Virus record (IMG/VR): IMGVR_UViG_3300046683_000098
Span: 1 to 25,919 of that record
Reading direction: 5' to 3' (one strand)
Source of the DNA: a virus
DNA length: 25,919 nucleotides
The position numbers and the translations under genes are program-made. Shown piece after piece: positions 3,994 to 22,721 of this stretch. The notes below the pieces were generated by a model that was given only the letters and a program-made list of their open reading frames with translations, searched no databases and had not been told where the DNA came from. The first letter of the stretch is position 1, and the number at the start of each line of letters is the position of its first letter.

Positions 3994-6401
3994 GCCTGCG
4001 CGCGGCACTCCGGCATCGCGCGCAGATGTCGCAGGCCTTCGGCTTGCCGAAACCGCGCATCGCGCGCGCTGTGCGCATCCGGCCGGCCAGATACGCGCAC
4101 GCGGCACAGCTCGCGTACATCCGCGCGCTGCTCGACGTCGTGGCCACGATCCGCGCTGCGCTCGAGCGGCACATCGTGCCAGCACTGCCAGCACTCGTCG
4201 CAGCGCACGCAGCCACGAGGCCGCAGCCGAGCGTGTTCGACGCGCGCGGCCAGCGCATCGCGATTGTGGGTGCTCCGCGCGCAGGCAAGACGACGCTCGC
4301 GCTCGAGCTCGGCAAGCAGCTCGGCATGTCCGTGCAGAGCTCCGACGACTTGATACCGCTCGGCTGGAGCGAGGCCAGCAGCGAGCTCGCGGATCGCATC
4401 GCAGCCGCGGACAGCGGCATATTTGAAGGCGTCGCTGTGATCCGCGCGCTGCGCAAGCTGCTCGAGCGCAGCCGCGACAAGCCTGTCGATCATCTGCTCG
4501 TGCTGCACATGCCTCACGAGCGGCTCACGAGCGGCCAAGCGGCCATGGCGGCCGGCGTGCGCACTGTCCTGCAGGCCACGCTGCCGACGCTGATCGCGCG
4601 CGGCGTGGAGGTGTACCACGACGCGGATCAGCTGCGCGCAGCGCTGCCAGCGCGGCTCGATGCCGAGGATGATGATCCCACAGTCGAGCTGTTCGATCGC
4701 GTGCGCGCGGACGTCGAGAGTGATGTGCCGAGCGGCCGCATCTCGCTGCTCGCGCAGCAGAACGCGCTGCGCGTCGACGAACACGTAGCCGGAGAGCTCA
4801 AAGCGCAGATCAAGCAGGTTGTGGCCATCGATCTGCACGCTCCGGACACAGGCGTGCCGCAGCACGTGCGCAACTTCGTCGCGCAGCAGATCACGCTCGT
4901 GAAAGGCCTCACGGAGAAAACGCTCGCGGACACGCACAGCGTCGTGCTCGAGGGTATCCGGCAAGGCCTGCGCGCGGAGGAGATCGCGAAGCAGCTGCGC
5001 GAGCAAGTCGGCCTGAGCAAAACGCGCGCAACGATCATCGCGAACGATCAAGTCGGCAAGCTGCACGGAGAGCTCACGCGGCTGCGTCAAACCTCGCTTG
5101 GGATCAAGCGCTACCGCTGGGCCACGAGCCGCGACGAGCTCGTGCGGCCAGGACACAGAGCGCTCGAAGGCACTACGCAGTCATGGGACGAGCCTCCAGT
5201 CGTCAATGCACGCACAGGCAAGCGCGCGCATCCAGGCATGGACACGCACTTTTACCCGTGCCGCTGCTCGGCCATTCCGATCATCGACGACTTGCTCGAG
5301 GAAGCCGGACTCAACACTGTGCCGCCGCCAGCGCCGCCGCCGGCCAACACGAACGAGCCAGCGAACACGAACGCGAAGCCGAAGCGCGCGCGAGCCAAGC
5401 CTAAGCCTGCTGCGCTGCCTCCGGAGCACACTCCAGAGCACTGGATACCGCACTACGCCAAGGAGTACGGCGCTGCGGCTCCACAAGTTGCGTGGGGCCG
5501 AGCGATGTCCGAGCGCGGCGGCGCGCTCGCGCTCGACGACTTCTGGGAAGGCGCGGACGCGCTGCGCAAGAGTGGCATCGAGTACCAAGATCCGCGCACA
5601 GCGACGTACGTGCGCGAGCTGATCGCGGAGCGCAACCCGCGGACGATCCGTGAGCTGCTCGATGCGATGGCCGCGGATCCGGACATCTCGGACAACCGTC
5701 GCGCGATTGCCGGCGAGCTGCGCGTCGCAGCGCAGCTCGTGAGCCATCAGCGCGCACTGAAAGGCTCGACAGCGCGCATCAAACTGAGCCGCGAGATCTC
5801 CAAGAGCCGCGGCGCGCGCAGGACTGCCGAGGAGCTCAGCGCAGCGCGCAGCCGCGCAAAGCGTTTCTACGAGACAATGACGCACAAGGACGTGCGGCAG
5901 CCTGTCGACTACCACTGGCACGCAAACAGCGCTCCGCGCGCGAGCCAGAATCAACCGCCGGCAGCCGATCGCACGGACGGCCGGATCAACTTCGGAGTGG
6001 GCCACAAGTGGAAAGATCCGAAGCTGATCGAGGACACGCTCCACGAGTGGGGCCACAGCCTCGAGTCGCTGAACGGCTCGCGGCTCGCAGCCGCTGTCGA
6101 CTTCCTCGACGCGCGCACAGTGGGCGAGGCAGCCGTCGAGCTGCGGAGCGTGCCAGGCCTCGAGAAACACGGCTACGGCGCGGAGGAGATCACGAAGCCT
6201 GACAAGCTATTCCATGCGTATGTAGGCAAAGTCTACAAGAGCCGCGACAAGGACTGGCTCAACTACAGCGGCCGCTTCGCGACGGAGGTGACGTCGATGG
6301 GAGTCCAGCACATGCACGACGTCACGACGCTCCACAGCGCAGTCGTCTCGCAGGATCCGGACTTCCTCGACTTCATCCTCGGCCAGCTCGCGAACCGCTG
6401 A
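3990..6401 (+). CDS. MuF head-morphogenesis protein with inserted P-loop kinase-like domain and C-terminal HExxH peptidase-like domain
   Basis: This 803-residue protein is about twice the usual size for a Mu gpF/SPP1 gp7 relative. Residues 1-85 and about 226-435 are the minor head protein, ending in the typical MuF block WATSRDELVRPGH (from 376), then WDEPP, HPG and CRCSAIP. Between these lies a P-loop domain (about 87-216): strand RIAIVG, Walker A GAPRAGKT (94-101), SSDD at 117-120, and FEGVAV near 145-150, like small nucleotide kinases. After a Pro/Asn/Lys linker (443-478) is a C-terminal region with HEWGH at 685-689 and TEVTSMG (Glu766), a zinc metallopeptidase-like pair. MuF proteins with C-terminal enzymatic or toxin domains are known. 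The roles of both extra domains here are inferred. The start is GTG 3990, overlapping the previous stop; the gene converges with a minus-strand gene one base away. Confidence 0.85.
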   Translation: MSLRAALRHRAQMSQAFGLPKPRIARAVRIRPARYAHAAQLAYIRALLDVVATIRAALERHIVPALPALVAAHAATRPQPSVFDARGQRIAIVGAPRAGKTTLALELGKQLGMSVQSSDDLIPLGWSEASSELADRIAAADSGIFEGVAVIRALRKLLERSRDKPVDHLLVLHMPHERLTSGQAAMAAGVRTVLQATLPTLIARGVEVYHDADQLRAALPARLDAEDDDPTVELFDRVRADVESDVPSGRISLLAQQNALRVDEHVAGELKAQIKQVVAIDLHAPDTGVPQHVRNFVAQQITLVKGLTEKTLADTHSVVLEGIRQGLRAEEIAKQLREQVGLSKTRATIIANDQVGKLHGELTRLRQTSLGIKRYRWATSRDELVRPGHRALEGTTQSWDEPPVVNARTGKRAHPGMDTHFYPCRCSAIPIIDDLLEEAGLNTVPPPAPPPANTNEPANTNAKPKRARAKPKPAALPPEHTPEHWIPHYAKEYGAAAPQVAWGRAMSERGGALALDDFWEGADALRKSGIEYQDPRTATYVRELIAERNPRTIRELLDAMAADPDISDNRRAIAGELRVAAQLVSHQRALKGSTARIKLSREISKSRGARRTAEELSAARSRAKRFYETMTHKDVRQPVDYHWHANSAPRASQNQPPAADRTDGRINFGVGHKWKDPKLIEDTLHEWGHSLESLNGSRLAAAVDFLDARTVGEAAVELRSVPGLEKHGYGAEEITKPDKLFHAYVGKVYKSRDKDWLNYSGRFATEVTSMGVQHMHDVTTLHSAVVSQDPDFLDFILGQLANR

Positions 6402-18082: not shown

Positions 18083-18936
18083 TGGCAGCGCACGAAGTCA
18101 CGCACGTGGAGATCGCGAGCATCTGGATCGACGTGAGCCTGCGCGAGCAGCACAACCTCGCTGCGGAGGTGACGCGGCATCCTGTCGAGGACGGCGTCGA
18201 CATCACAGATCACGTGCGCGAGCAGCCGGAGCAGCTGCAGATCGAAGGCCTCGTCACGAATCAGCCGATCGAGCTGCCGCGCTCGCACATGAGCGGAGTG
18301 ACAGCGGACGCCAAGGCGAGCCTGCAGCTCCGTGGCCGCGAGACTGCGCAGATCGAGCGCATGAGCATCGCTGGCGCGCTCGGCACGACGATCGAAGGCG
18401 AGCCGACGCTCGGCGTACTCGGCCTGCTGCCTGGCGCAGATCAGGCGACAACGCTCCTGCGCACTGTCGGTGCGGACGTGCGCAGCAAGCGCAAGCTCGC
18501 GATGGTGACTCCGAAGCTCGCTCGCGGCTCGGACACGCTTCGGCACGCGACTGGGCTGCAGTTCTCCGCGGAGTTCGATCGCGTGCGCGCTGTCGAGAGC
18601 GCGCTGCGCGCAGCGTTCAAAGCGCGCAGGCCAGTGCAGATCGTGACAGGCCTGCGCGTGTACGAGTCCATGGTGCTGACGGATCTCACGATCAACCGAG
18701 ACGCGAGCTCGCACGGCGCGCTTCGCTTCGGAGCGACAGCGGAGTCGATCCGCGTCGTCAAGAGCTCGAGCGGCCTTGTCGGCGTGCCGGATCCGCTCAA
18801 CGTGCGCGCGAAGCCTGCCGTCGACACAGGCAATCAGAACACAGCGCCAGTCCAGGCCGACGAGATACCGAAGGAACAGATCACGACGGCCAAGCAGCTG
18901 CTCGAAGGATTCAAGCGCGCTGTGGGGCTCCAGTGA
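18079..18936 (+). CDS. Dit-like baseplate / distal tail protein
   Basis: A 285-residue protein. The N-terminal HPVEDGVDITDHV block (34-46), followed by LQIEGLVTNQPIEL, is typical of Dit-like proteins in myophage baseplates, and the later IVTGLRVYESMVLTDLTINRD block (from about 188) matches the second half of that domain. Residues between them form an insertion with a hydrophobic loop. The C-terminal 50 residues are polar. Dit-like proteins form the ring around the tube end and bind the hub. The gene overlaps the tape measure stop at ATGATG and the next start by four bases. Confidence 0.75.
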   Translation: MMAAHEVTHVEIASIWIDVSLREQHNLAAEVTRHPVEDGVDITDHVREQPEQLQIEGLVTNQPIELPRSHMSGVTADAKASLQLRGRETAQIERMSIAGALGTTIEGEPTLGVLGLLPGADQATTLLRTVGADVRSKRKLAMVTPKLARGSDTLRHATGLQFSAEFDRVRAVESALRAAFKARRPVQIVTGLRVYESMVLTDLTINRDASSHGALRFGATAESIRVVKSSSGLVGVPDPLNVRAKPAVDTGNQNTAPVQADEIPKEQITTAKQLLEGFKRAVGLQ

Positions 18937-19256
18937 GCGCGCTTCGCATCGTCACGCAGCCGGCTCCGGACTCGACGCAGCGCGTCGAGCTGTCCGGCAG
19001 CGTGTACACGCTGCGGATCTACTGGAGCCAGCGCGCGCAGTGCTGGCACATGGACATGTCCGACGCGGACGCGCTGCCGATCGTGATGGGTGTGCGGCTC
19101 GTGACGCTGTTTCCGCTGCTGTACCGCTATCGGCACTTGGCCGTGCCTCCTGGCGAGCTGTTTGTGTTCGACAGACGCGGCCTGGCCGGCAAGCCGACGC
19201 TTGAGGAGATGGGTGATCGGTACCGCTTGTACTACGTCGACGAAAGCGGCTTCTGA
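18933..19256 (+). CDS. Baseplate plug protein
   Basis: A 107-residue protein. It fits the phage baseplate plug family: SGSVYTLRIYWSQRAQCWHMDMSD, named here by its end motifs YTLRIYW and WHMDMSD (about 24-42), then LPIVMGVRLVT, PPGELFVFD and DRYRLYYVD. In Pam3-type baseplates a small beta-rich protein of this kind sits between hub and central spike. GTG 18933 overlaps the Dit-like stop, and the hub gene starts on this gene's stop codon. The order Dit-like, plug, hub supports the call. Confidence 0.75.
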   Translation: MSALRIVTQPAPDSTQRVELSGSVYTLRIYWSQRAQCWHMDMSDADALPIVMGVRLVTLFPLLYRYRHLAVPPGELFVFDRRGLAGKPTLEEMGDRYRLYYVDESGF

Positions 19257-20113
19257 TGGTTGCCACGATCTACAAGCTGCCAGACGCAGTCGATCTGTTC
19301 GATCGCAGCTATCGGCTGCAAGTCGAGGACTTGCTGATCACGGAGCTGCACGTCACGCTCAGCGTCAAGCGCTCGCTCAGCGCGAAAGTGGCCAACTCTG
19401 CCGAGGTGACGATCTACAATCTGAGCGTCGAGCATCGAAAGAAGCTGCAGGCGCTGCAGAACGTGTTTGTAAGCCTCGAAGCCGGCTTCGACGGCCACAA
19501 CAGTCTGATATTCCGCGGCGACTTGCGCGAGGCGTGGAGCCATCGCGAAGGCGTCGACTGGATCACGGAAGTCTCGAGCGCGAGTGCCGTCGTGAAGCGC
19601 AAGAAAGCGCGCGTCAATACGGCCTTCCCAGCCGGCACGAGCGTTGCCACTGTGATCGAGCACTGCGCGAAGGCCATGCAGATCGGGATGGGAAACGTCT
19701 CCAAGCAGGCACTGCGCGCGAAGCTGTGGAACGTCTCGCCGCCAGCGTTCGTGACTGGCTACGTCGCGAGCGGCGACGCTGTGAGCCAGCTCGATCGCGT
19801 GTGCCGCAGCTGCGGCCTTGAGTGGAGCGTGCAGGACAATCAGCTGCAGCTGCTCGAGCGCGGCAAAGCGCTGCAGGAGGATGGGATCGTACTCGCTCCT
19901 GGCAGCGGCCTGCTCGAGTCTCCGGAGCTCGGCAAAGGCGGCGTAGTGCGCTGCAAAGCGCTCATGATTCCAGGCCTGTACCCAGGCCGTCGCGTCGAGC
20001 TTCGCACGCAGCACGTGCGCGGTGTATACAGGATCGAGACGACGCACCACAAAGGCGGCTTTGACGCCGGCGATGACTGGGGCGCAGAACTCGAACTATC
20101 GGTGCTGAAATGA
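19256..20113 (+). CDS. Baseplate hub protein (gp27-like)
   Basis: A 285-residue protein predicted to be the trimeric hub that joins tube to spike. The N-terminal half has VEDLLITELHVTLSVKRS and SAEVTIYNLS, a common opening of hub proteins. The middle has LIFRGDLREA, and the C-terminal half CRSCGLEWSVQDNQLQLL, SGLLESPE, IPGLYPGRRVELR and a final GVYRIETTHHKGGFDAGDDW. These features fit the gp27/gp44-type fold seen in short-tailed myophages. ATG 19256 shares a base with the plug stop. It is not followed directly by the spike; two accessory genes intervene. Confidence 0.8.
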   Translation: MVATIYKLPDAVDLFDRSYRLQVEDLLITELHVTLSVKRSLSAKVANSAEVTIYNLSVEHRKKLQALQNVFVSLEAGFDGHNSLIFRGDLREAWSHREGVDWITEVSSASAVVKRKKARVNTAFPAGTSVATVIEHCAKAMQIGMGNVSKQALRAKLWNVSPPAFVTGYVASGDAVSQLDRVCRSCGLEWSVQDNQLQLLERGKALQEDGIVLAPGSGLLESPELGKGGVVRCKALMIPGLYPGRRVELRTQHVRGVYRIETTHHKGGFDAGDDWGAELELSVLK

Positions 20114-20751
20114 CAAACAAGCTCACGGCCGAGGACTTCGCAGCCGAGCGCAAGGACGTCGCGGACTTCAAGCAGTTTGACGGCATGGACTCGTCCACTC
20201 GACGCTGTCCGTGCGGCGCAGTGTTCACTTGGAGCGGCCACGATCCGCAGCTCGACGTCTGGATGGCTCAGCATCGGCCGCACTTGACTGATGCGCACAG
20301 CGCGACGGTAGGCGTCGGCCACGCTGGCAACTCGCAGTCCACGGCCGTCTATGCCGGCGGAGGCGGAGGCGCAGGCGGCGACTCTTATGGGAGTGGCCGT
20401 GGAGGGAACGGCGGCGGCGGAGGCAGTGTCCATTTCCTCGGTACGCCGAACGAACACGGCGGCGGCGGAGGCGGCGGCATCGGCATGCCGCGATTCGTCG
20501 CGGTTGAGTCAAGCGGGCCAGCGCCGGAGCTGTTTCCAGGCGCGGACGCCGACACAGCCGACGTGCTGCGTTACTTCGCGTACGAGCATCTGCCGCCGCA
20601 TCTGCAGGACGTGTCCGCTCCGTTCGCGCTCGTCGCGCGCGATATCGTCGCGAAGCTGCCGCCGTGCCGCGAGCGCACGAAGGCGCTCGACAGGCTGCTC
20701 GAGGCAAAGGACTGCGCTGTTCGCGCGAAGCTCCACGGAGCCGGCCGATGA
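20110..20751 (+). CDS. Three-part accessory protein with C-terminal Acb2/Tad1-like hairpin
   Basis: A 213-residue protein in three parts. Residues 30-60 hold a possible metal site: Cys33, Cys35, then His55 and His58. Residues 81-126 are Gly-rich (two Gly-rich runs around SVHFLGTPNEH), a flexible linker. Residues 150-208 are a helical hairpin with LRYFAYEHLPPHLQDVSAPF and RERTKALDRLLEAKDCAVRA. I recognise this hairpin as like the phage family (DUF7681-type) that includes the Acb2/Tad1 signalling-molecule sponges. Family membership is moderately sure. Sponge activity is not shown, because many relatives are uncharacterised. The gene is coupled to the hub by an ATGA overlap and to the next gene likewise, so it is expressed late with tail genes. 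Confidence 0.65.
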   Translation: MTNKLTAEDFAAERKDVADFKQFDGMDSSTRRCPCGAVFTWSGHDPQLDVWMAQHRPHLTDAHSATVGVGHAGNSQSTAVYAGGGGGAGGDSYGSGRGGNGGGGGSVHFLGTPNEHGGGGGGGIGMPRFVAVESSGPAPELFPGADADTADVLRYFAYEHLPPHLQDVSAPFALVARDIVAKLPPCRERTKALDRLLEAKDCAVRAKLHGAGR

Positions 20752-21176
20752 GCGAGCGCGGCCAGGACGGCAAGGACGGCGCTGTGATCCTGCCGCTCGA
20801 GGTTGTGCTGCCGCGCTGGCGCTGCCACAAGGTTGTCGAGGCTGCGAAGATCGCGGCTGTGAACCCGCGGCATCCTGGCCCAGACGATGATCTCGTCAAC
20901 GACAAGGAACTCACGGAGTGGTACCGGCTGCACGGAGGCGCTGTGCTCGAGCTCGCGGACACTGGCGAGCCTCCGCTGCACATGCTGGTTTCGTACGCGT
21001 ACTACGTGAAGCACAAGCCGGAGGCTGGCGGCTACTGGGTTCGCTACGAAGGCGGCTACGAGTCGTTTTCTCCGGCGAAGGCCTTCGAGGACGGCTACAC
21101 GCGGATCGGCGACAAGCAGACTGTCACAGCGGCCGACGTCGGCTCGCTCGCGGACGTGCTCAAGCCGGAGCCATGA
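20748..21176 (+). CDS. Accessory phage protein with CHKVVEA and GYWVRYEGGY motifs
   Basis: A 142-residue protein of unknown function. Early WRCHKVVEAAKI is a motif seen in many small phage proteins. The late block AYYVKHKPEAGGYWVRY, then GYESFSPAKAFEDGYTRI, is a second common phage motif. Both occur, alone or together, in early and late phage regions without known activity. The open frame reaches back to 20664, but ATG 20748 overlaps the previous stop (ATGA). It also overlaps the spike gene by four bases. Its place between hub and spike is unusual and it is probably cargo, not a baseplate part. Confidence 0.75.
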   Translation: MSERGQDGKDGAVILPLEVVLPRWRCHKVVEAAKIAAVNPRHPGPDDDLVNDKELTEWYRLHGGAVLELADTGEPPLHMLVSYAYYVKHKPEAGGYWVRYEGGYESFSPAKAFEDGYTRIGDKQTVTAADVGSLADVLKPEP

Positions 21177-21841
21177 GCGGCGCGACTCCAGAGTGGACTG
21201 AGCTCCTGCAGCTCGCTGTCGAGGCGAAGCTGTTCGAGCTACACACGTCCATGCCTGGCCAAGTCGTGGCAGTGCACAGCGACGCAAAGAGCAAGCGGCA
21301 GTTTGTCGACGTGCGGCCGAGCCTCCGGCGCTGCCTCGAGGCCGAGCCGTCGAGCGCGGCTCCGTTCCTCGAGGAGGAGCTGCCAGTGCTGCCGCGCGTG
21401 CCTGTCGGCTACCCACAAGGCGGCGGCTGGTTTGTGTGCTGGCCGCTCAAGCCAGGAGACTTTGTCACGCTCGTGTTCGCGGAGCGCTCGATCGATCGCT
21501 GGATCGCGACTGCGCGCAAGTCGCGGCAAGCAGCCGTGAGCACAGGCGACGTCGGCACGCACACGCTGGATGGAGCGATCGCGCTGCCAATGGGCCCGGC
21601 TCCGAGCGCGGAGCTCCTGCAGCACGTCGACGCGGCCAAGCTCGTGCTCGGCCATGCGACAGGCACGCCGATGCTGTCGTTTGCCGAGGACGGCACTGTG
21701 ACGCTCACTGGTAGCCTCGTGGTGAGTGGCGAAGTCACGGCCGGAGCCAGCGGCGCGCCTGGCGCAGTGCCTGTCCATCTCACGACGCACAAGCACGGTA
21801 CCGCGATGGGTCCGAGCGGCGCGCCGCTGCCGGAGCCGTAG
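21173..21841 (+). CDS. Baseplate spike protein (gp138/gp45-like)
   Basis: The 222-residue central spike pierces the host outer membrane. The N-terminal part has a helix with LQLAVEAKLFELHTSMPGQV followed by an OB-type barrel (FVDVRPSL, VGYPQGGGWFVCWPLKPGDFVTLVF described by landmarks near 78-102). The C-terminal part is a beta-helix-like region (MLSFAEDGTVTLTG, SLVVSGEVTAG). It ends in THKHGTAMGPSGAPLP with an HxH at His206/His208, the motif that holds an iron ion at the tip of P2 gpV and phi92 gp138 spikes. The open frame starts at 20918, but ATG 21173 overlaps the previous stop and gives the family-like start. Confidence 0.85.
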   Translation: MSGATPEWTELLQLAVEAKLFELHTSMPGQVVAVHSDAKSKRQFVDVRPSLRRCLEAEPSSAAPFLEEELPVLPRVPVGYPQGGGWFVCWPLKPGDFVTLVFAERSIDRWIATARKSRQAAVSTGDVGTHTLDGAIALPMGPAPSAELLQHVDAAKLVLGHATGTPMLSFAEDGTVTLTGSLVVSGEVTAGASGAPGAVPVHLTTHKHGTAMGPSGAPLPEP

Positions 21842-21849
21842 GCCGGCCG

Positions 21850-22290
21850 ATGCCAGTCAATAAGCCAGGCCTCAAGACCGATCTGCAGACGATCGCGAGC
21901 GGCTCAGGCTCGAGCGTCCACGACGCGGCGCAAGCCTGGGCCGACGCGCTGCAGGCATACGCGTCGGCCGTCGTGCCGGCCTCGGCCAGCGTCGCGACTG
22001 CGACGAGCGCGCTCGCGAGCGCGCTCGAGTCGGCCTTCGCGGAGCTGTCGAGCGCGTCGGACATCGAGGCTGCGCTCGCGGCCTGGGCCGGCGCTGTAGG
22101 CTTGGGAATGGCTCCAGCGTTCACGGCCACGCCGCCGCCGGACGCAGTCGGCCTCGCTGCGCTGTTTGATGCGGCCTATCCGGCGACGCACGCCGCTGCC
22201 GCCACTCGGATGAGCGGCGCGCTGGACACGTGGTTTCGCACAGGCACAGGTACGCCGTCGGCCGGCGGCTCGCCTGTGCAGTGGTCGTAG
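21850..22290 (+). CDS. Baseplate-region protein, unknown function
   Basis: A 146-residue Ala/Ser-rich protein. It begins MPVNKPGLKTDLQTI, has a helical middle (AAQAWADALQAYASAVVP, ALASALESAFAEL) and a C-terminal helix before WFRTGTGTPSAGG. Similar small Ala-rich proteins that start with MPVNKP sit between spike and gp25-like genes in related myophages, but their role is not known. It begins eight bases after the spike stop without a clear Shine-Dalgarno. After it comes a 50-base gap with the third leaderless promoter candidate. Confidence 0.75.
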   Translation: MPVNKPGLKTDLQTIASGSGSSVHDAAQAWADALQAYASAVVPASASVATATSALASALESAFAELSSASDIEAALAAWAGAVGLGMAPAFTATPPPDAVGLAALFDAAYPATHAAAATRMSGALDTWFRTGTGTPSAGGSPVQWS

Positions 22291-22305
22291 GCTAACGACA
22301 CACAC

Positions 22306-22333
22306 TTGCTCTTGGCGCGGCTCGGTTGATACA
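22306..22333 (+). promoter_or_regulatory. Predicted leaderless promoter of the gp25-like gene
   Basis: TTGCTC (22306-22311), a 16-bp spacer and GATACA (22328-22333) precede GTG 22341 by 7 bp. Spacer and start distances are identical to those before the portal and DUF2213 genes. It occupies a 50-base gap in an otherwise overlapping baseplate operon. The upstream in-frame TTG 22326 overlaps the hexamer and is less likely as a start. Confidence 0.5.
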
Positions 22334-22340
22334 GGCCACT

Positions 22341-22721
22341 GTGTCCGACCTAGCGCTCGATGCTGCCGGCGATCTGCTCATCGAGCACGGAGACGCAGTG
22401 CTCGCGACTGGCGCGCTCGCAGTCGCGCAGGACTGGCAGCGCAGGCTCGGCCTGTTTCGCGGCGAGTGGTCGCTCGATCGACGCGTCGGCATCGACTATC
22501 AGAATTTGATCTTCGACGGCAGGCCGAGCCAGGCGCTGCTGCGGCACGTGTTCGAGACAGTGACGCGCGACACGGCCGGCGTGAAGTCGCTTGATCGGCT
22601 GAGTTTCGAGTTCGAGCGCGGCAGCCGCACGCTCGACGTCACTGCCGACGTGACGATCGACAGCGGCGAGAGCGTCGCGCTCGAGTTCCACAACGTGCTG
22701 TTTCCGGAGGCCGACGCTTGA
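22341..22721 (+). CDS. Baseplate wedge protein (gp25-like / Mu gp46-like)
   Basis: A 126-residue protein. It starts VSDLALDAAGDLLIEHGDAVLA, a usual opening of Mu gp46/DUF2634-type proteins, has GIDYQNLIFDGRP in the middle, and ends with strands LDVTADVTI and VALEFHNVLFP. These proteins share the gp25 lysozyme-like fold and start sheath polymerisation from the baseplate wedge. GTG 22341 gives the expected short N-terminus. It overlaps the baseplate J gene at TTGA, the usual gp25-J order. Confidence 0.82.
   Translation: MSDLALDAAGDLLIEHGDAVLATGALAVAQDWQRRLGLFRGEWSLDRRVGIDYQNLIFDGRPSQALLRHVFETVTRDTAGVKSLDRLSFEFERGSRTLDVTADVTIDSGESVALEFHNVLFPEADA

Follow-up and report, generated by a model that had tools for sequence, protein, structure and literature searches.

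Between the baseplate hub and spike genes of a contractile-tail phage lies an open reading frame whose product ends in a helical hairpin. The locus raises the question of whether this hairpin is related to Acb2 and Tad1, the small sponges of the anti-CBASS and anti-Thoeris systems, and what such a protein would do in a baseplate operon. The window (the whole stretch of 25,919 nt that was analyzed) is, judged from its gene content, a fragment of a contractile-tail phage. Its genes are ordered as ParB-like, TerL, portal, head genes, major capsid, sheath, tape measure, hub, two inserted-looking genes, spike, wedge genes, and fiber. The ParB-like gene (21-665) stands immediately before the large terminase gene. 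The first-pass annotation, made from the letters of the window, had described a single gene between hub and spike. Both flanking genes were recovered by their family matches (Table 1), but two genes lie between them, the second of which is called the partner gene here.

Table 1. Features of the hub-to-spike interval in window coordinates
Feature	Position	Strand	Evidence and remarks
Baseplate hub	19256..20113	+	phrog_196, E 2.8e-60; ATGA overlap with the hairpin gene
Gene of the 213-aa hairpin protein, ATG start	20110..20751	+	Open reading frame; metal-site-like N-terminus, Gly-rich linker, C-terminal F hairpin
Metal-site-like segment, C33-x-C35-G ... H44 ... H55-x-x-H58	20206..20283	+	Sequence only
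Gly-rich linker, residues 79-126, 25/48 Gly	20344..20487	+	Sequence
F hairpin, residues 146-211	20545..20742	+	Short N-terminal helix and two long antiparallel helices (predicted)
Partner gene, 142 aa, SWSP domain	20748..21176	+	phrog_11049, E 4e-23
Baseplate spike-type protein	21173..21841	+	PF18352, E 7.2e-14; ATGA overlap with the partner gene

The C-terminal hairpin and its family

The C-terminal hairpin is a real and well conserved domain. It was the only part of the 213-aa protein with family matches, namely to phrog_1761 (E 2.4e-24) and phrog_5120 (E 1.2e-16). Residues 1 to 140 matched no family, the N-terminal 77 residues had no relatives among phages by tblastn, and scans of the window protein with Pfam, NCBIfam, and PADLOC returned nothing. 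The single window hairpin, searched against PDB sequences, gave chance matches only. The first-pass annotation had located the hairpin at residues 150 to 208, behind a metal-site-like segment and a Gly-rich linker, and all three parts were confirmed, the hairpin with limits of 146 and 211.

By tblastn, 288 phage records matched the hairpin, and the confirmed hairpin stretches numbered 424 in viral contigs and 190 in species genomes. This family, here called F, occurs in phages of Vibrio, Erwinia, Acinetobacter, Gordonia, and others and also in genomes from many phyla, and its members are annotated as "hypothetical protein." The window hairpin is at best about 60% identical to the family. Across 198 F proteins, L16, S24, L51, E53, and K55 were invariant, and F11, H15, E43, D56, V59, and R60 were nearly so.

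The typical F protein stands alone and is 62 to 70 aa long, as exemplified in Acinetobacter phage ZZ1. The fused form is rarer, yet F hairpins also follow other N-terminal parts that are unrelated to one another (CxxCxGxG-type, P-loop-like, and a segment without a family); the fusion in the window is thus uncommon but not unique. In the Ochrobactrum phage vB_OspP_OH (L294, 765-1133), the hairpin lies behind a CxxCxGxG zinc-type motif, and the protein is annotated as anti-TRAP. In four large phages of the Erwinia/Dickeya type (L087, L090, L098, and L103, at about 4700-5200), it is fused behind the P-loop-like segment ILGDVGSGKSAAYCRI. In Mesorhizobium waimense (L318, about 4800-5190), the small segment GKFYTTRTGGVVGPVRAG...DLVEE, which had no Pfam match, precedes the hairpin.

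Relationship to the Acb2/Tad1 hairpins

Membership in PF24729 (Acb2_Tad1_hairpin) was defined as a match above the curated cut-off of 27 bits. The positive control, T4 Vs.4, matched at 71.5 bits, and neither the window protein nor its hairpin matched. Among 35 F members, three showed PF24729 matches below the cut-off (best E 0.042), and PF24729 was the sole Pfam family hit by more than one of the 35. By the curated PF24729 test, F is not Acb2/Tad1.

The first-pass annotation had proposed a profile comparison with the hairpin family. This comparison gave no match to PF24729 itself, but F aligned with two uncharacterized PF24729-type families, labeled in this analysis as branches M ("FTYHPP") and K ("HPSTFxYLxPT"). 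PF24729 recovered 20 of 20 M members, and K was assigned to it through one protein (L105, 42 bits). With the K profile built without L287, an F sequence, hhalign gave a P value of 3.1e-7 for F against the M and K branches (probability 93%, 35 columns), whereas 60 column-shuffled control profiles never went under 8e-3. In addition, the joint HMM of these branches was searched in a database made of 22,925 ORFs and the reversed form of each. It recovered 46 F proteins at an E value of ≤0.1, the sole further ORF at this level being T4 Vs.4, a weak match, and none of the reversed decoys fell below E 2. These profile similarities go beyond chance and probably place F in an Acb2/Tad1 hairpin superfamily that is wider than PF24729. 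The window hairpin itself was not among the joint HMM matches in the 22,925-ORF search, so its link to PF24729 runs through the F family. F also gave no alignment with a profile of Acb2 and Vs.4 only, which indicates that the link passes through intermediate branches as well. The F profile also gave chance matches, at E 3e-4 to 5e-4, to a designed helical protein and to the sheath of the P1 tail, so no single score is decisive, and the agreement of methods is what counts. P1 Gp22 was considered as a structural link but set aside, since this protein is the tail sheath and scored like the designed one.

The AlphaFold2 model of the hairpin (pLDDT 93.8) contains helices at residues 2-11, 18-37, and 42-67. 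This short helix followed by two long antiparallel helices is the topology described for Acb2 in reviews (PMC12043709, PMC10419184). In a Foldseek search of predicted viral structures, F-type and unnamed proteins came first. The first matches with a named domain were Acb2/Tad1 hairpin proteins (ranks 9-11, probability 0.94-0.99), and the matches after the F-type and unnamed proteins were mainly named "Acb2/Tad1 hairpin domain-containing." Against the PDB (Foldseek, VIA), the matches listed for the hairpin were all generic helical bundles (Z of 7.1 at most) and included no chain of Acb2, a result that speaks neither for nor against the relationship. Altogether, the profiles, the predicted fold, and the operon neighbors described below indicate that F is probably a remote relative of PF24729 and the Acb2/Tad1 hairpins. 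The family assignment made in the first-pass annotation therefore holds as remote homology, which the decoy controls also favor, and not as membership in the curated family.

We compared the pocket positions in the joint alignment. The basic residue of helix 1 (K26 in Acb2, which we take to be a pocket residue; K23 in T4; Arg in M and K) corresponds to the invariant Ser24 of F. At the position of Y8 in T4 Acb2, in which the Y8A variant is binding deficient (PMC12657230), the window hairpin has Y13, and 195 of 198 F proteins have an aromatic residue. At the position of T68, where the T68M change weakens T4 Acb2 (PMC12657230), the window hairpin has Asp49; most F proteins have Arg, as do all sampled K proteins. 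Hence, of the ligand-pocket residues, whose presence had been suggested as a check on the sponge assignment, the aromatic at Y8 was kept, but the other two of the three positions anchored in the literature or in conservation differ in the window hairpin. The F pocket is altered rather than simply retained and probably takes a different ligand, or none. With Ser in place of the basic residue and T68 replaced, any F ligand probably differs from that of Acb2.

The same replacements, together with the preserved helix-core positions, would suit a true relative that no longer binds nucleotides and now serves as an oligomerization or protein-interaction module, for example one that multimerizes the metal-site-like segment. 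The occurrence of F behind several unrelated N-terminal parts is consistent with such a module. However, F is mostly a complete stand-alone protein, and its near-invariant polar set (H15, S24, E43, E53, K55, D56, and R60) exceeds the needs of a mere zipper. We consider this loss of binding a possible but rather doubtful explanation.

Operon neighbors, the partner gene, and the baseplate locus

The chief new line of evidence is the association of F with known sponges in genomes. When the immediate neighbors of 209 F genes were clustered, Tad2 was the largest family, with 8 loci, 6 of them independent, and the proteins tested from it proved to belong to PF11195. After dereplication, 8 of the 12 known-sponge genes in F loci were located within 300 nt on the same strand (6 of 10 for Tad2 and 2 of 2 for the PF24729 type). 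Under uniform placement, a null that ignores the general clustering of small accessory genes, possible regardless of function, 0.86 sponge genes were expected within 300 nt of F, and 8 were reached in none of 100,000 simulations. The window itself showed no Tad2 domain. In two loci (L105, 4113-4574, and L046, 387-829), the F gene is directly followed by a PF24729-type hairpin gene, and two related hairpins thus share one operon.

Convergence of short amphipathic hairpins, with a function of F unrelated to that of Acb2 and Tad1, would account for a short, helical profile with low-E chance matches to designed proteins and a tail sheath and for the failure of F to match the Acb2-only profile. This explanation is improbable, since the decoy and shuffle controls, the fold neighbors, and the physical linkage to known sponges agree independently.

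The partner gene encodes a domain with the motif GGYxVxYExGYxSxSP, labeled SWSP in this analysis, and the domain (phrog_11049) had no Pfam match. Apart from the window, SWSP was seen in L336, L207, L334, L383, L386, L387, L390, and L421. Five of the checked proteins join it to Tad2 (PF11195), namely those of L336, L207, L334, Klebsiella phage SopranoGao, and a Punavirus; L101 is a sixth such fusion by its resemblance to L334. In Caulobacter phage Jess A, SWSP is fused to Acb2 (PF24729, 62 bits). The SWSP-Tad2 fusion stands immediately before an Acb2 gene in L207 and L210 and adjoins an F gene in L336, L334, and L101, thereby indicating that F can take the place of Acb2 beside the partner. The tie of SWSP to sponges is not universal, with a sponge fused or within 40 nt in 4 of 46 dereplicated viral clusters that carry the domain. 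Fused to two unrelated sponge folds, the domain provides a second handle for finding such genes.

The top PDB row for the partner model (pLDDT 80) was the phage L decoration protein Dec (6e3c), which aligned over 83 residues with Z 7.0, rmsd 3.0, and 26% identity (next PDB row, 5.2). Dec was also the only PDB sequence match of the partner protein, a weak one (E 0.12). The model suggests that the SWSP domain is akin to a capsid decoration domain. In contrast to Dec, partner-type genes are scattered over many genome positions.

In three phages with related hubs, the hub and spike genes directly adjoin, and the hairpin and partner genes therefore look like an insertion between them. Three ATGA overlaps connect the interval, between hub and hairpin gene (20110-20113), hairpin gene and partner (20748-20751), and partner and spike (21173-21176), and no promoter-like site was found at 18900-22400 of the window. 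Because the four genes are coupled by these overlaps and lack a promoter-like site nearby, expression of the hairpin and partner genes is probably late. No close relatives of the window phage were found among viral contigs when sought through the hub. Between the spike and wedge genes, the window also contains a 146-aa Ala-rich protein without a family match (21850-22290).

An accessory baseplate protein, whose Gly-rich stretch would serve the tail tip as a flexible or a packing element, would fit the ATGA-coupled place between hub and spike as well as the absence of a separate promoter-like site, but it is quite improbable given the direct hub-spike junctions of the related phages and the positions of other F genes (beside the portal, between capsid and neck genes, in the lysis region, and near RNA ligase or nucleotide-metabolism genes), which argue that F is no fixed tail component. 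The first-pass annotation had also envisaged a late-expressed or virion-linked protein; late expression stands as a reading of the overlaps and the missing promoter-like site, but the varied positions of F genes argue against a fixed virion role.

Proposed role and comparison with known systems

We propose, with a probability of roughly 0.5, that F is an uncharacterized distant branch of the Acb2/Tad1 hairpin superfamily and a putative counter-defense sponge, carried here in a late two-gene cargo. The hairpin would be a divergent member of the superfamily that holds Acb2, Vs.4, and the C-terminal part of Tad1, and its two long helices would hold the protomers together in a multimer. At the protomer interfaces, the multimer would bind a small immune signal of the nucleotide type and so sequester it during infection, as Acb2 and Tad1 do. 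Acb2 itself is a homo-hexamer, and the Acb2 and Tad1 sponges bind cyclic oligonucleotides or gcADPR. The hairpin and SWSP genes would together form a counter-defense cargo between hub and spike, co-translated with both and hence presumably late. Such timing would suit defenses that are triggered by late proteins; Thoeris is reported to sense the major head protein (PMC12043709). A bolder form of the proposal appears highly improbable to us. In it, F and its Dec-like partner would be putative sponges, either delivered with the virion or acting late, that dampen nucleotide alarms, and F would take up a signal that Acb2 does not bind.

The family matters for its size, with hundreds of members spread over phages and the genomes of many bacterial phyla, and for its recurrent position next to Tad2 and Acb2-type genes. 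Should its hairpins bind nucleotide signals, a common "hypothetical protein" would turn out to be a counter-defense family, and its altered pocket would point to new signals and perhaps to new defense systems. Given its recurrent place near known sponges, F may be a new kind of phage weapon against bacterial alarm molecules.

Compared with the anti-CBASS sponge Acb2 (T4 Vs.4), F is likewise a small phage protein with the same helix topology, an aromatic residue at the Y8 position, and overlapping families of neighbor genes. It differs in being PF24729 negative, in having Ser for Lys/Arg in helix 1, and in lacking Thr at the T68 position. The window protein differs further in that its hairpin is fused behind a long N-terminal region and encoded in a baseplate operon. 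The closest profile relatives of F are the M and K branches. K shares with F the Arg at the T68 position and an LRKL motif, and in two loci the gene immediately following F belongs to K; however, the Ser in helix 1 and the KDC in helix 2 of F are replaced in both branches by an invariant Arg and an MW motif, respectively. The anti-Thoeris sponge Tad1 resembles the window protein in that a two-helix hairpin at the C-terminus follows an N-terminal part. In Tad1, this part is a beta-sheet domain; in the window protein, the metal-site-like segment and Gly-rich linker stand there, neither with a family match. Tad2, the anti-Thoeris and anti-CBASS sponge, has a fold different from that of the F hairpin and is tied to it as a recurrent neighbor of F genes and as a fusion partner of the SWSP domain.
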